Shown here: piece after piece, positions 3,724 through 10,174 of the stretch
How positions within the stretch are numbered: position 1 is the first letter of the stretch
Layout of the letters: every line of letters begins with the position of its first letter
Source of the DNA: Methanoculleus horonobensis
GTDB lineage: Archaea; Halobacteriota; Methanomicrobia; Methanomicrobiales; Methanoculleaceae
Assembly (NCBI RefSeq): GCF_001602375.1
Contig: NZ_BCNY01000015.1
Location: 186,001 to 250,000 of the forward strand
DNA: 64,000 bases
Direction: 5' to 3'
The notes under the pieces: model-generated
Database searches by the model: none
Told to the model about the DNA's origin: nothing
The model's input: the letters and a program-made list of their open reading frames with translations, nothing else
Program-made: the position numbers and the translations under genes

Positions 3724-3797
3724 GGGCTCGTGGTCTAGCTGGTTATGACGTCGCCTTCACACGGCGGAGGTCTCGAGTTCGAATCTCGACGAGCCCA
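3724..3797 (+). tRNA. tRNA-Val (anticodon CAC)
   Basis: The acceptor GGGCTCG pairs with CGAGCCC and discriminator A is at 3797. The anticodon stem TCGCC / GGCGG encloses TTCACAC, so the anticodon is CAC. The T arm contains GAGTTCGAATCTC. It follows tRNA-Gly after only two bases. Its 3' 45 bases are duplicated at 8036-8080 and, in degenerate form, at 22151-22188, which marks it as the integration target of the accessory region to its right. Confidence 0.96.
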
Positions 3798-3977
3798 CTC
3801 GTTTTTCGGGGATACGGTCACAATCGCAGACTGAATCCCCTTTTCCGCCCCTTTTATCAACCCATCTATGAATCGGGACGCATTCGTAACGTTGTTTTGC
3901 AGAAATTCGTTCGCTTCATGACTCAAGGTTATGTGCCTTGTTTCTCGTTTATGCTCGGATTTCGTCTCTTTTGCCAT
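3735..3977 (-). CDS. Small ribbon-helix-helix protein reaching into tRNA-Val (RHH1)
   Basis: An 80-residue basic protein. Its core HITLSHEANEFLQ followed by NASRFIDGLIKGA fits a ribbon-helix-helix DNA-binding fold: a short strand, then two helices. The last 20 or so residues (RDSNSRPPPCEGD) are encoded antisense to tRNA-Val and end at a TAG in its D-loop region. That tail therefore comes from the attachment site and is probably not functional in itself. An SD-like GGAG lies upstream of the ATG, and a phased TGGCCA array lies 30-57 bases upstream, suggesting autoregulation. It resembles the protein at 8095-8280, which also abuts a tRNA-Val fragment. Function (antitoxin, excision control or copy control) is not known. 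Confidence 0.6.
   Translation of the reverse strand: MAKETKSEHKRETRHITLSHEANEFLQNNVTNASRFIDGLIKGAEKGIQSAIVTVSPKNEWARRDSNSRPPPCEGDVITS
3753..3797 (+). repeat. Attachment-site copy 1 (3' end of the intact tRNA-Val)
   Basis: These 45 bases run from the anticodon stem to the discriminator of tRNA-Val. They match 8036-8080 at 42 of 45 positions without gaps. Confidence 0.85.
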
Positions 3978-4006
3978 TTTCTCTATTCTCCGTTTTCCTT
4001 TCTCCT

Positions 4007-4034
4007 ATGGCCATGTTTGGCCATTTATGGCCAT
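4007..4034 (-). promoter_or_regulatory. Three TGGCCA boxes at exact 10-bp spacing (probable RHH1 operator)
   Basis: The palindrome TGGCCA occurs at 4008-4013, 4018-4023 and 4028-4033, one helical turn apart. The outer two extend to ATGGCCAT. The array lies 30-57 bases upstream of the RHH1 start codon and overlaps an AT-rich ATAAATGG that could be its TATA box. RHH repressors typically bind tandem short sites on one face of the DNA, so autoregulation is a reasonable inference. Confidence 0.55.
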
Positions 4035-4121
4035 ACTTTCGGGTATACCGAAGATTCTGTGTAAGGGGTCTTAAAGATGTAGTGACTAAAACGAGGGTGC
4101 GGACCGCGCGCAAATGAAAAT

Positions 4122-4130
4122 GGATATATG
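4122..4130 (+). promoter_or_regulatory. TATA box for the transglutaminase-like gene
   Basis: GGATATATG lies about 30 bases before the ATG at 4158, at the distance expected for a short-leader or leaderless archaeal message. Confidence 0.5.
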
Positions 4131-4157
4131 AGTGCGGTCTGATTCACAATCTGTGGT

Positions 4158-5324
4158 ATGTCTGACGACGAAGAACCCTTTGTGGTTGAACACGAAACTC
4201 TCTTAATTGGAGATGAATGGTTTGAGGTCGAAAATGCCGTTCACTTTGTGGCTGATGGCCAAGAATACATTTTTCTCGATGATAAGTGTTACGAGTTAAA
4301 TGGTTCTGTCTTGGGCGACCCGATGGGGTCTGTTGTGCGGCATGAGTCTGTTTACTTCAAAGGGGAAAAATATGACCTTGAAAACACTCCACACGTCGAG
4401 ATAAACGGTCAGGAGTACATTTCGATTGATGGTAAGTGGTACGAATTGAATGGTGCTTTCCTCGGCAATGAAGTAGATGAGGACGAGTTGGAGAGGATGG
4501 CAGAGGAGGAGGACGCATTCCCGTACGAACCACCACAGCAACCCGGGGGGAGGGGATCTATCCTCATACCTGTGCTGTGCTTCCTTATCGCGGCTGGGGC
4601 TACTGCCATGGTGATGAGTGAGTATGGGTTCACTAAGTTCGATATCGACCCCCCTGCTTCCGTGATCGCGGTAGGGACAGCGACCCCGACGGCTACCTCC
4701 TCCTCGATTAGCGTGACCCGGACCGCCACGCCTAGAGTTACACCTACTCCCGTGACGTCATACGGAGACACTCAAGCTTCAAAAATCGTCGAAGCGATGG
4801 ATTACACTAACCCCACAACCCGGGATTTCGCTCTGAGTCTGATTGATAAAGACCATGGCGGGAATTATAACATCGCGCAGATATGCGATATGTGGGAAAA
4901 GATTTACAAGCGATGGACCTATGTGAACGATCCAAAGGGCACCGAGTACTATTCTCCTGCAAGCAGGACTATCAACCTTGGATTGAAGGGAGATTGTGAC
5001 GATTTTGCAATTCTTGTGGCATCAACGATGTTGGCAATAGGCGGTACTCCTCGGGTAATCCTGGCATCGGATAGCGTTGAAGGTCATGCTTATGCGGAGA
5101 TCTGCATAGCGAACAATAAGGATAGTCTCCAGAAAGCCGCGAACTACATCTGTCAGAGATACAAGTGTAAGAATATCGCATACCGGACAGCTAACGCTAA
5201 CGGGCAAACACAATACTGGCTTAACCTCGACTGGAGTTCAAAACATCCGGGAGGATCGTATTTCCAGAACGACGGTGCGACCGTCGCGATCTACCCGAAC
5301 AAACATTGGGTGAGGCTGAAGTAA
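4158..5324 (+). CDS. Membrane-anchored transglutaminase-like protein with N-terminal repeat
   Basis: 388 residues in four parts. Residues 11-57 and 62-107 are two copies of one motif, each ending in YELNG followed by xLG (GQEYIFLDDKCYELNG and GQEYISIDGKWYELNG). One membrane segment follows at about 134-154, then a Thr/Pro-rich linker (165-200) and a transglutaminase-like domain. The likely catalytic triad is C280 in KGDCDDFAIL, H310 in GHAYAE and D358 in LNLDWSS. The catalytic domain is probably outside the membrane and the repeats inside, but orientation is inferred. Such domains may be peptidases or cross-linking enzymes; the substrate is unknown. It is AT-richer than chromosomal neighbours and lies within element A. 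Confidence 0.7.
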   Translation: MSDDEEPFVVEHETLLIGDEWFEVENAVHFVADGQEYIFLDDKCYELNGSVLGDPMGSVVRHESVYFKGEKYDLENTPHVEINGQEYISIDGKWYELNGAFLGNEVDEDELERMAEEEDAFPYEPPQQPGGRGSILIPVLCFLIAAGATAMVMSEYGFTKFDIDPPASVIAVGTATPTATSSSISVTRTATPRVTPTPVTSYGDTQASKIVEAMDYTNPTTRDFALSLIDKDHGGNYNIAQICDMWEKIYKRWTYVNDPKGTEYYSPASRTINLGLKGDCDDFAILVASTMLAIGGTPRVILASDSVEGHAYAEICIANNKDSLQKAANYICQRYKCKNIAYRTANANGQTQYWLNLDWSSKHPGGSYFQNDGATVAIYPNKHWVRLK

Positions 5325-5498
5325 TCAGGCCGGGGCCGCGGCCACTACCTCTTCCACACACTCCTCCGGGATGCCATAGAGGGCTGAGGTCTCCTCGACG
5401 ATCTGCCGGCGGGGGATGCCGTCACGGAGCATAGCGGTAACGGTACGCTTGAGGTCGTGAAAAAGAAGCGGAAGTGCCCGGTTTGCGATATTTTCATT
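5325..5498 (-). pseudogene. Gene fragment, possible relic of a tyrosine recombinase
   Basis: The minus strand is open for 57 codons before a TGA, with no usable start at its upstream end. It includes LPLLFHDLKRTVTAMLRDG. The HDLKRT piece resembles the box II His-x-x-Arg motif of phage-type integrases (HxLRRT). The tail ALYGIPEECVEEVV is not integrase-like and no tyrosine nucleophile is evident, so the identity is weak. GC-rich, unlike the surrounding element. Confidence 0.3.
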
Positions 5499-5804
5499 TC
5501 AAAACTTCGTCCTACCGAGCAACAATCTGAGCCACAACATAAACCGCGGCAATCGTAATCCATACTCCAATCGGCAAAAGAAGCAGGGTGTCAACGGGCA
5601 GAGCACTCTATTGACCTGTATGATTACGTAGAGCAGCGGAATGCCGTATACGATTACTCGTTGTCTAAGTGAATTAATTATCCAACATTATCCAACACTC
5701 GTATGCTTATGCACACACACGCACACACAAACACACTTCTTTTTCAATTTCGAACGAGTTTTATGGTTTAAATTTTTCCAACTTTCATCCAACACGATAC
5801 TAGC
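5499..5804. other. AT-rich gap with iteron-like and CA repeats
   Basis: No convincing gene. A 10-base unit, ATTATCCAAC, is repeated perfectly in tandem at 5677-5696. Two further TCCAAC copies lie at 5777 and 5788, and a CA-rich microsatellite lies at about 5711-5736. The two flanking genes converge on this gap, so it is not an obvious promoter region. Confidence 0.5.
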
Positions 5805-7493
5805 TTAACCTCTTTCGGGAGGTTGAATCAATACCCATTTGGCACCGAAGGTTTTACTACCTGTTGTTTTGATTATCCCCTCCTTCCGCATCTCCTGAAG
5901 CAAATTTTTAATGAACCTACGTTTCTGCTCTTTATTGAGAGCATCTGATACCTTATCCAACAACAGGTCTTCGACAGCCTCCCTATCCGCTTCATGGAAT
6001 TTTTTAAGGTACGCAATAACCATATCCTTGAAATGCTGCTTGTCAAACGACCGTTTTCTGATATAATCTGCCCGCGTATCTGTTTCAACAGCAACTTTTT
6101 CTGAAACATAGAGATTGGGACGTCTCCCCTCAATCAGCTTCTTGGATTTGAGTGATGAAAATTCAGCATCTGAAAGGCGATGGCCCTTTTGGACCTTATC
6201 CAAGGCAATAACATCAACAATATCTAAATCTTTGCGTTTGATTAACATACGGGTATATTTTGGATCGATCACTTTACCGGTAATTGTCACTTTTACCTTG
6301 TTGAGTTCACTCAGATCATAATCCGGCATGGGGAAGTTTCGCTCTCTTTGAAGCCGGAACATACGCCTGATGCCACTTCCGATTGTATCGATCATATTTA
6401 GATTCACCATGGCCTGTGCAAGGAAGGGGTTCCGGTATTTATCCGGCGGCGTGTGAGACATGATGAGAGATTCTATTGAGCCTGGAATGAATTCTCCACG
6501 GTTGGTAAAAATCAAAGAGTCCGATCGCTCGACAACGGAAATTCTTGCCCCTTGGGAATAATCCTGGTGAGCAATGCAATTATGCAATGTTTCACGGATT
6601 ACCCAAGGATCGTATTGGGTAATTTCCAATGGAAATAGTGTCTCATCGGAAATATGCCTATAGGTAAGATTTCTGATCTTACTAAATACCGCATTAACTG
6701 CCAGAATTAATGGAGCTTCAAAATGTGCATAATCCTTTTCAACACCGGCATCGTCTTTTATAATCCAAGTTATTTGGGCTGTCGCGGGAGACAGGTAGTG
6801 TTCCGCCTCACCTTTGCCTAGTAGTAATAGTGCAGTGTTGGTGATTTTTCCATCGATACAGACTCTAGCTCGGTTTAGAAATTCAAGATCGTCCCAACTA
6901 TCAACCTCTCGGGATGGGATGGTCGTTGCATATTTCTTCTTAAATTCATTTCGGGCAAACGCAATTGCATCAGAATTAAGATCGTCGATTGTTGCCTTTT
7001 CGCAAGTACGGGCTGACCAATCTAAATCGGCACCTTGATCTCGAATTCTCTGAATCTTGTGAAGAGCCAGCTGTCCAAGCGAGTCATGGGTGCGACCGTA
7101 AACCACACTCTTCCATTCCGTGGGTATGCCCCGCGTTGCGGGGGGAATTCTGAACATTATTACTCGCCCTCCCGGAGTGTGGAGTTCGTGTATTGATATA
7201 AATGTTAACTGGTGGTTTGTTTGGTAGGAGATTTTACGTTTAAGTTTTTCAAGACCTGGAGGTGTTTCGTAAAAGTGTGTGCCCACAATTTTTCTTGGAG
7301 GTTTATCAGTTACTCCGAAAATTAACCATCCTTCAGGTTTATCGTTCAAGTTGGCCTCATTACTTAGTGCGGATACATAACGACCAATCTGTTCGAAATC
7401 AAAAGTGGTCTGTGCTTCCTTGAATTCAACCCATTCCGTTTCGGTGGGAAGATTCATCAGATCGTACAGAACTTGTAACAGGTCTTCAGGCAT
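5805..7493 (-). CDS. AlbA_2 (Schlafen-type) ATP-binding regulator-like protein
   Basis: 562 residues. The N-terminal AlbA_2 domain shows WVEFKEAQ at 21-28 and GWLIFGV at 55-61. A GHKL-like HATPase_c_4 region follows, with RETLHNCIAHQDY at 300-312 and DSLIFTNRGEF about 20 residues later, then IGSGIRRM near 378. The C-terminal 150 residues look like winged-helix segments. Proteins of this design are common in mobile elements and defence loci, where a regulatory or nucleic-acid-binding role is supposed but rarely shown. The ATG at 7491-7493 has GGAGAG six bases upstream, so it is preferred over the ATG 54 bases further out. Confidence 0.8.
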   Translation of the reverse strand: MPEDLLQVLYDLMNLPTETEWVEFKEAQTTFDFEQIGRYVSALSNEANLNDKPEGWLIFGVTDKPPRKIVGTHFYETPPGLEKLKRKISYQTNHQLTFISIHELHTPGGRVIMFRIPPATRGIPTEWKSVVYGRTHDSLGQLALHKIQRIRDQGADLDWSARTCEKATIDDLNSDAIAFARNEFKKKYATTIPSREVDSWDDLEFLNRARVCIDGKITNTALLLLGKGEAEHYLSPATAQITWIIKDDAGVEKDYAHFEAPLILAVNAVFSKIRNLTYRHISDETLFPLEITQYDPWVIRETLHNCIAHQDYSQGARISVVERSDSLIFTNRGEFIPGSIESLIMSHTPPDKYRNPFLAQAMVNLNMIDTIGSGIRRMFRLQRERNFPMPDYDLSELNKVKVTITGKVIDPKYTRMLIKRKDLDIVDVIALDKVQKGHRLSDAEFSSLKSKKLIEGRRPNLYVSEKVAVETDTRADYIRKRSFDKQHFKDMVIAYLKKFHEADREAVEDLLLDKVSDALNKEQKRRFIKNLLQEMRKEGIIKTTGSKTFGAKWVLIQPPERG

Positions 7494-7551
7494 TACTACT
7501 CTCCACAACTGGTTAGTTCTTTCTCTCAATCGAAGCCAATATTTCATTTAT

Positions 7552-7842
7552 TTACCGCTTCGCCAATTGTTGCCGCCTCCACCTGATCCAACTAGTGTTG
7601 ATGGTTAGCTCGGCAGGATCGCCATCATAATTGGGATTTACGTTTATATTCTTGGGGATTGAGAGCAAGTTTAATCTTGACATCAATCTCTTAAACAAAG
7701 ATGAATTAGATATCAAATAATTTAAAGGTTTTATTTTATTAATAAAAAGGGCATGAGGGTCTAACTTTAATCCTTCAAGTAATTGAAGAAAACTCGCAAC
7801 CCTCGTGATTCTGCCTCCGAAATTGAAAGTGTCACACAACAT
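7552..7842 (-). CDS. Hypothetical protein, 96 residues
   Basis: An open frame upstream of, and co-directional with, the AlbA_2 gene, ending about 60 bases before its start. It has no recognisable motif, no good ribosome-binding site and an AT-rich composition in which chance frames are likely. It may be a real cargo gene of element A, a relic, or spurious. Confidence 0.3.
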   Translation of the reverse strand: MLCDTFNFGGRITRVASFLQLLEGLKLDPHALFINKIKPLNYLISNSSLFKRLMSRLNLLSIPKNINVNPNYDGDPAELTINTSWIRWRRQQLAKR

Positions 7843-8035
7843 GGTTTGTTTTTAAGAATTTGATATTCGTCGGATATCGTAAGCGTACTCGTGGAGTAGT
7901 CTTATCCCTCCTATCAGACAACTTATTATCTTTTATTCGTTGATTTCACCACACTTTCCAGAAATTCTGGTGCTGCTCCCACACATCATTAAGAATCTCA
8001 TTTATTGGCTTGTATGCAAGATCGGAGGCAACATG

Positions 8036-8080
8036 GCCTTCACACAGCGGAGGTCTCGAGTTCGAATCTCAAAGAGCCCA
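8036..8080 (+). repeat. Attachment-site copy 2 (tRNA-Val 3' fragment)
   Basis: Identical to 3753-3797 at 42 of 45 positions, with differences at fragment positions 11, 36 and 38. It cannot form a whole tRNA because the 5' half is absent. It marks the end of element A and the start of the next segment. Confidence 0.85.
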
Positions 8081-8094
8081 TTATTTCATCTATT

Positions 8095-8280
8095 TTACGA
8101 AATTAAGGCCAAACTCCGCAAATTCATCTTTAGGCGCTCAAAAATCACTTTACCGAACAAACGCGACGCATTAATACCGCTTTCTTTCAGATACTCGTAG
8201 TTCTCAGGGTCGATTGTGATCCGTAACAATTTTCTAATCCTCCGAATTTTGCCCGGTTTTCGCTTTCCTCCTTTTTTCAT
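8095..8280 (-). CDS. Small ribbon-helix-helix protein next to attachment copy 2 (RHH2)
   Basis: A 61-residue, strongly basic protein (MKKGGKRKPGKIRRIRK) whose core LLRITIDPENYEYLKESG followed by NASRLFGKVIFERL has the ribbon-helix-helix pattern. It lines up with RHH1 over ITx, the xEYL/xEFL helix and NASR. Its stop lies 15 bases from the tRNA-Val fragment and it points toward it, as RHH1 does toward the intact tRNA. The ATG at 8280 is preferred over one at 8304 because AGGAG and GAAGGG precede it. Upstream, ATGATC occurs at 8313 and 8333, exactly 20 bases apart, a possible weak counterpart of the RHH1 operator. Confidence 0.6.
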   Translation of the reverse strand: MKKGGKRKPGKIRRIRKLLRITIDPENYEYLKESGINASRLFGKVIFERLKMNLRSLALIS

Positions 8281-8394
8281 GCCCTTCTTCTCCTGTAGCT
8301 GCATGTAGTGTCATGATCGGGAGAATATTGGGATGATCTCATAGAAAGAAGGAGAAAGGAACTTTTTTATGCAATAAACAGGTTTCGCTTCCCA

Positions 8395-10047: not shown

Positions 10048-10174
10048 GGGGGACTTCCTCCTCCGGACGGCCGGAACCGGGGGACCATCCGGGAGAGTGT
10101 ATCTCCTGCGGGGGTGCCTCTGCTGCAGGAGGCGAAGGAGAACAAACGAGAAGACTTCGCTCTCTTTACCCCGG

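Follow-up and report, generated by a model that had tools for sequence, protein, structure and literature searches.

The three phased TGGCCA boxes that precede the small gene RHH1 in the window, i.e. the whole 64,000-nt stretch of Methanoculleus horonobensis DNA analyzed here, probably act as an operator controlling an SSV-type ("suicidal") integrase gene, to which the integrase's own RHH domain would bind and thereby limit integrase synthesis. As judged from the sequence comparisons described below, RHH1 is int(N), the front fragment of such an integrase, and no stand-alone regulator. The features of the locus are collected in Table 1.

Table 1. Features of the RHH1 locus and its element (window coordinates).
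Feature	Position	Strand	Remarks
tRNA-Val(CAC), integration target	3724..3798	plus	its 3' part, 3748-3797, is attL
RHH1 ORF, int(N)	3735..3977	minus	RHH domain ~residues 1-58 (3804-3977); stop inside the tRNA
Second GGAG	3988-3991	minus	from sequence
GGAG	4002..4005	minus	abuts the array directly; same position is the Shine-Dalgarno in several relatives
Operator array (predicted)	4006..4035	minus	three 10-bp near-palindromes; kept before orthologues
Decamer TATGGCCATA	4035-4026	minus	RHH1 coding strand
Decamer AATGGCCAAA	4025-4016	minus	RHH1 coding strand
Decamer CATGGCCATA	4015-4006	minus	RHH1 coding strand
TATA-like TTTAAG of the int(N)/RHH1 promoter (candidate)	4070..4075	minus	position shared by 17 of 48 family loci
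Membrane protein with transglutaminase-like core (PF01841)	4158..5324	plus	cargo
Schlafen/AlbA_2 + RecG-C-terminal-type ATPase protein (PF04326, PF13749)	5805..7547	minus	cargo
int(C) remnant	7770..8030	minus	frameshifted, with stops; start in frame with the att site
attR	8031..8080	plus	50-bp copy of the tRNA-Val 3' part, 90% identical
RHH2, int(N) belonging to another element at this tRNA	8095..8304	minus	A1 profile E 1.7e-20

The preliminary description of this DNA was correct in placing three TGGCCA hexamers at exact 10-bp steps before RHH1 (4008-4013, 4018-4023 and 4028-4033 in the window sequence). Read on the minus strand from 4035 to 4002, the three decamers follow one another without interruption and run directly into GGAG. 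Allowing up to 3 mismatches, the array has one match in the window versus 0.01 expected from dinucleotide shuffles; single TGGCCA hexamers are not enriched (10 observed versus 11.4 expected). No other pair of TGGCCA at 10-bp spacing was found anywhere in the 2.45-Mb genome, where the array is unique.

The preliminary description made conservation of the boxes upstream of RHH1 orthologues a test of its reading, and the boxes are conserved there: exact TGGCCA triples are present in two other Methanoculleus lineages (L036/L007 and L033/L004), and a decayed triple is found at two pseudogene copies (L040/L041). This conservation places the array beyond chance. In the Methanomicrobiales, many RHH1 relatives carry two or three palindromic decamers at 10- or 20-bp pitch immediately 5' of the Shine-Dalgarno, with a core sequence that differs per lineage, the constant features being pitch and position, not the letters. 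Other lineages display either three TGTCCGGACA, TGTGCGCACA or TGTACGTACA decamers at 10-bp pitch or two TGTATGAACA/TGTGCGGACA sites 20 bp apart, the last one reaching GGAG in both arrangements; in two distant relatives of family f9 (L328 and L331), three TGTCCGGACA-type sites are spaced by 11 bp and not by 10. A clear array is absent from some members of the RHH family. Over the 86 upstream regions of the family, self-matches of at least 13/16 identity are frequent only at lags of 10 (16% of loci) and 20 (15%), versus 0.000 in shuffles, and pairs of palindromic decamers (at least 8/10) occur at 25 loci at 10 bp and at 23 loci at 20 bp (shuffled means 0.8 and 0.6), i.e. ~30-fold over shuffles. 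Note that the 5- and 15-bp spacings are raised too, as expected within tandem palindromes. The helical phasing first noticed in the window thus holds family-wide, and arrays of this kind, which had been called rarely described in methanogen elements, are not rare there: they accompany this integrase family across an order and occur, at 11-bp pitch, in more distant relatives. The exact TGGCCA triple also occurs in 21 viral contigs (L141-L161), none of which encodes this RHH, and which are therefore unrelated; in one of them, L155, the triple array is present six times in 30-bp steps.

The preliminary description also had the array overlapping the likely TATA box, which the geometry of the family does not support: 17 of the 48 loci have a TTTAAG that begins 36-42 nt ahead of box 1, versus 0-4 loci in the other 7-nt bins. 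The TATA box therefore probably lies ~40 nt upstream of the array and not beneath the boxes. From the usual archaeal TATA-to-start spacing, the start site is predicted shortly before the array, so that a bound RHH would be expected to block RNA polymerase rather than TBP.

The assignment of RHH1 to an integrase comes from its position at a tRNA gene, from ORFs that become one frame when the att sites are joined, and from an unsplit fusion protein. The last 20 residues of RHH1 are an antisense reading of tRNA-Val. In the initial searches, the query was the 80-aa RHH1 including this antisense tail, and matches to residues 58-80 only were discarded. A convergent tRNA abuts the RHH1 relatives at their 3' end in 77 of 88 cases, or 80 of 88 when three with a T-arm fragment are added, as counted with a profile restricted to the RHH part, yet built from the matches of the first (80-aa) query; the tRNAs behind family members correspond to 11 amino acids. 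Many loci have the tRNA 3' half repeated, up to 18 kb into the element, and clear direct repeats of 32-69 bp were found in 11 of the searched regions. In intact elements, an SSV-type integrase ORF (PF16795) begins within this repeated att sequence, and most int(C) ORFs in the order open with an antisense-tRNA peptide. Joining attL to attR yields one uninterrupted frame of RHH, antisense tRNA and PF16795 integrase in four elements (L224, L229, L237 and L335, the last being 471 aa long); the joined frame of L226 is broken by one stop, located in att, and the RHH side of L336 is decayed. The Phage_integr_3 (PF16795) catalytic domain is present in the relatives L206, L224, L226 and L237. Finally, genome G010 encodes an unsplit RHH-integrase protein (L333, contig C13; PF16795 E 1.4e-21). 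At this sole unsplit gene, neither a phased array nor a neighbouring tRNA is visible, and the array has thus so far not been observed ahead of an intact integrase gene. Four of the elements (L224, L226, L229 and L237, in genomes G099, G096, G097 and G041) are 16.5-18 kb long with the RHH int(N) and the SSV-type int(C) at opposite ends, and share a packaging-type ATPase and a protein of ~320-330 aa without Pfam match, whose designation as a candidate capsid protein is a guess.

In the window, the element extends from tRNA-Val to attR. Reading from the attR copy on the minus strand yields LCEGHVASDLAYKPINEILNDVWEQHQNFWKVW and then, past a frameshift, ESRGLRVFFNYLKD; these two segments of the int(C) remnant match the unsplit integrase in order (7999-7865, E 1e-6; 7901-7770, E 2e-4; tblastn). 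This remnant is only N-proximal, the catalytic domain having been lost; int(C) is dead, so that any present role of RHH1 would not be the control of an integrase in cis. Among the cargo genes, the one of Schlafen/AlbA_2 and RecG-C-terminal type is possibly defence-related. Directly right of attR lies RHH2, whose GGAG is preceded by the degenerate 10-bp repeats TGACACTACA TGCAGCTACA. As RHH2 is another int(N), two elements entered the same tRNA-Val, the one of RHH2 being probably older than that of RHH1. The synteny of M. chikugoensis with the window breaks at 3801, the end of the tRNA, and ~0.8 kb after the tRNA its sequence matches window position 10103.

The predicted structure of RHH1 has helices at residues 20-29 and 33-45 after a candidate strand (pLDDT ~77); comparisons with solved structures, by sequence and by fold, gave no significant match, Foldseek against the PDB included. 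RHH1 itself matches no RHH family; among 45 relatives, CcdA is matched by 6 and RHH_3 by 4 (best values 1.3e-5 and 0.001). Searches for RHH relatives gave no matches in phages and viral contigs, nor in plasmids, where only pT26-2-type catalytic domains of 24-28% identity were retrieved. Classical tyrosine integrases (PF00589) near RHH genes are mostly XerA-like or distant copies, with none inside the elements checked.

We compared the operators with the RHH proteins at 48 loci with a clear third site, and rechecked the result in 37 non-redundant members. Operator distance tracks the RHH beta strand when the helices are controlled for (partial r 0.247, p 0.0002, 48 loci; p 0.0016 in the 37 members), as well as the RHH N-arm (r 0.249, p 0.0025), and shows no correlation with the helices once the strand is controlled for (p 0.40). 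Taken by themselves, the strand residues that face outward show only a weak correlation with the operator (p 0.058). This covariation is modest; it agrees with what DNA binding through the N-arm and strand of the RHH would lead one to expect, without proving it. Since the boxes are conserved and helically phased, and their sequence varies together with the DNA-binding part of the protein, the suggestion made at the outset, an operator on which RHH dimers bind in tandem, is a good reading; what has to be revised is the nature of RHH1, which is int(N) rather than an independent regulator.

Alternatively, RHH1 might bind the boxes while regulating the element in its own right, as an antitoxin, in copy control or as an excisionase, and adjoin a tRNA by accident. 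It is indeed small, and its intact ORF is under purifying selection, as seen from omega values of 0.06-0.41 for 19 of 20 RHH pairs (the one exception being 0.84); some relatives match the antitoxin CcdA; and, with profile A1, built from the RHH part of the family, int(N) is found in 62 of 232 Methanomicrobiales genomes, as compared to int(C)/PF16795 in 18 of 231 genomes of the order. However, an independent regulator would not account for the one-frame joins with the integrase in four elements, the unsplit fusion protein and the int(C) ORFs starting inside att, and no conserved partner gene adjoins the RHH across loci, the shared families being host flanks or a module of 4-5 proviruses. We consider this alternative unlikely and strongly disfavoured. 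The purifying selection and L036, where RHH and operator are kept and most of the element is lost, suggest that hosts retain int(N); this is suggested only, as the selection (omega <1) may have acted in mobile relatives and not in the host.

The boxes could also serve recombination, as arm-type sites docking the N-terminal domain of the integrase in the integration/excision complex. The N-terminal domains of lambda-type integrases contact arm sites, and ~200 bp separate att from the array, which is on the side of int(N). In SSV2, Int(N) controls multimerisation (PMC8371274). The position of the array is nevertheless fixed relative to GGAG and to the TATA-like element, which makes recombination an improbable main role, although the two roles are compatible and could coexist. 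Since the pairing of RHH1 with the boxes is drawn from sequence comparison, a host factor (TFB-like, chromatin or another regulator) might bind them in its place; such a factor should favour one site, whereas the core varies among lineages of a single order and follows the N-arm and strand of the RHH, leaving this explanation with little probability. Lastly, slippage easily yields three copies of a 10-bp unit, and the boxes might be a chance or functionless simple tandem repeat; they are, however, conserved across lineages whose RHH genes are at dS 0.34-0.55, and the same pitch reappears in arrays built from other sequences. This last reading is refuted by the conservation of the array, and we give it a negligible probability.

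We thus favour control of the integrase gene by its own RHH domain, and propose the following scheme. In the circular element, a single gene would encode an N-terminal RHH, a linker from att (antisense tRNA) and a tyrosine-recombinase domain, and would be transcribed from its own promoter. We infer that RHH dimers would occupy neighbouring 10-bp boxes along a single face of the helix, just downstream of the predicted start, and that the outcome would be repression, which keeps integrase synthesis low. When the element inserts at the 3' end of the tRNA, the gene would be cut at att: attL would retain the promoter, the operator and the RHH part, i.e. int(N), and attR would receive a promoterless catalytic int(C). 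The RHH stub, which can still be made from its own promoter, could then act as a repressor there, or at the integrase promoter that a related element brings in. More tentatively, and as a possibility to which we give less than even weight, the splitting of the gene would itself create an RHH-only repressor, which, made at attL from the original promoter, binds the phased operator and silences the integrase genes carried in by elements that share its operator class, a built-in superinfection control. If so, int(N) and its operator would be preserved by hosts as a module even once the remaining element has decayed, and lineages would diversify their operator/RHH specificities like immunity groups.

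RHH dimers of MetJ/Arc/CopG-type repressors bind short, regularly spaced sites ahead of their own gene; by contrast, the spacing here is 10 bp (20 or 11 in some relatives) and the RHH domain is fused to a recombinase. Lambda-type integrases resemble the RHH-integrase in that their N terminus carries an additional DNA-binding domain, of a fold that is unrelated as far as known, whereas the sites described here lie in the integrase promoter/leader. Another comparison is with F55 of SSV1, a small archaeal viral RHH repressor that binds several 11-nt sites in promoters, including its own (PMC9608457): both are small RHH proteins of archaeal elements with repeated sites at their own promoter, the binding of RHH1 being predicted. 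F55 is, however, encoded by a gene of its own, outside the integrase, and its site ATAGATAGAGT lacks the palindromic form seen here; the operator logic thus has a viral archaeal precedent, as a separate gene. Suicidal integrases, the split of their gene and their tRNA targets are already known, and the integrases of SSV1, SSV2, pTN3 and pT26-2 share with the present ones the PF16795 domain, an att inside int at the tRNA 3' half and the int(N)/int(C) split (PMC8371274); what sets the present ones apart is an Int(N) that consists of an RHH domain and has a phased operator to itself. According to a 2021 review of suicidal integrases, in which neither RHH nor Methanoculleus occurs, there is no consensus on Int(N) expression, and it is unsettled why archaeal elements keep self-destroying integrases and whether the leftover Int(N) acts (PMC8371274). 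In the open-access literature, we found no publication joining RHH with an SSV-type integrase. An RHH stub under purifying selection, behind a covarying operator, offers a concrete and testable answer, namely a possible repressor function of the stub.

In methanogens, a short RHH ORF that runs into a tRNA gene can also serve as a simple marker of a decayed integrated element; many such elements have lost the catalytic half. In the window (3735-8304) and at L228, L231 and L338, a single tRNA is followed by int(N) genes in tandem, whether or not the att copies are intact, an arrangement pointing to repeated integration at the same site.
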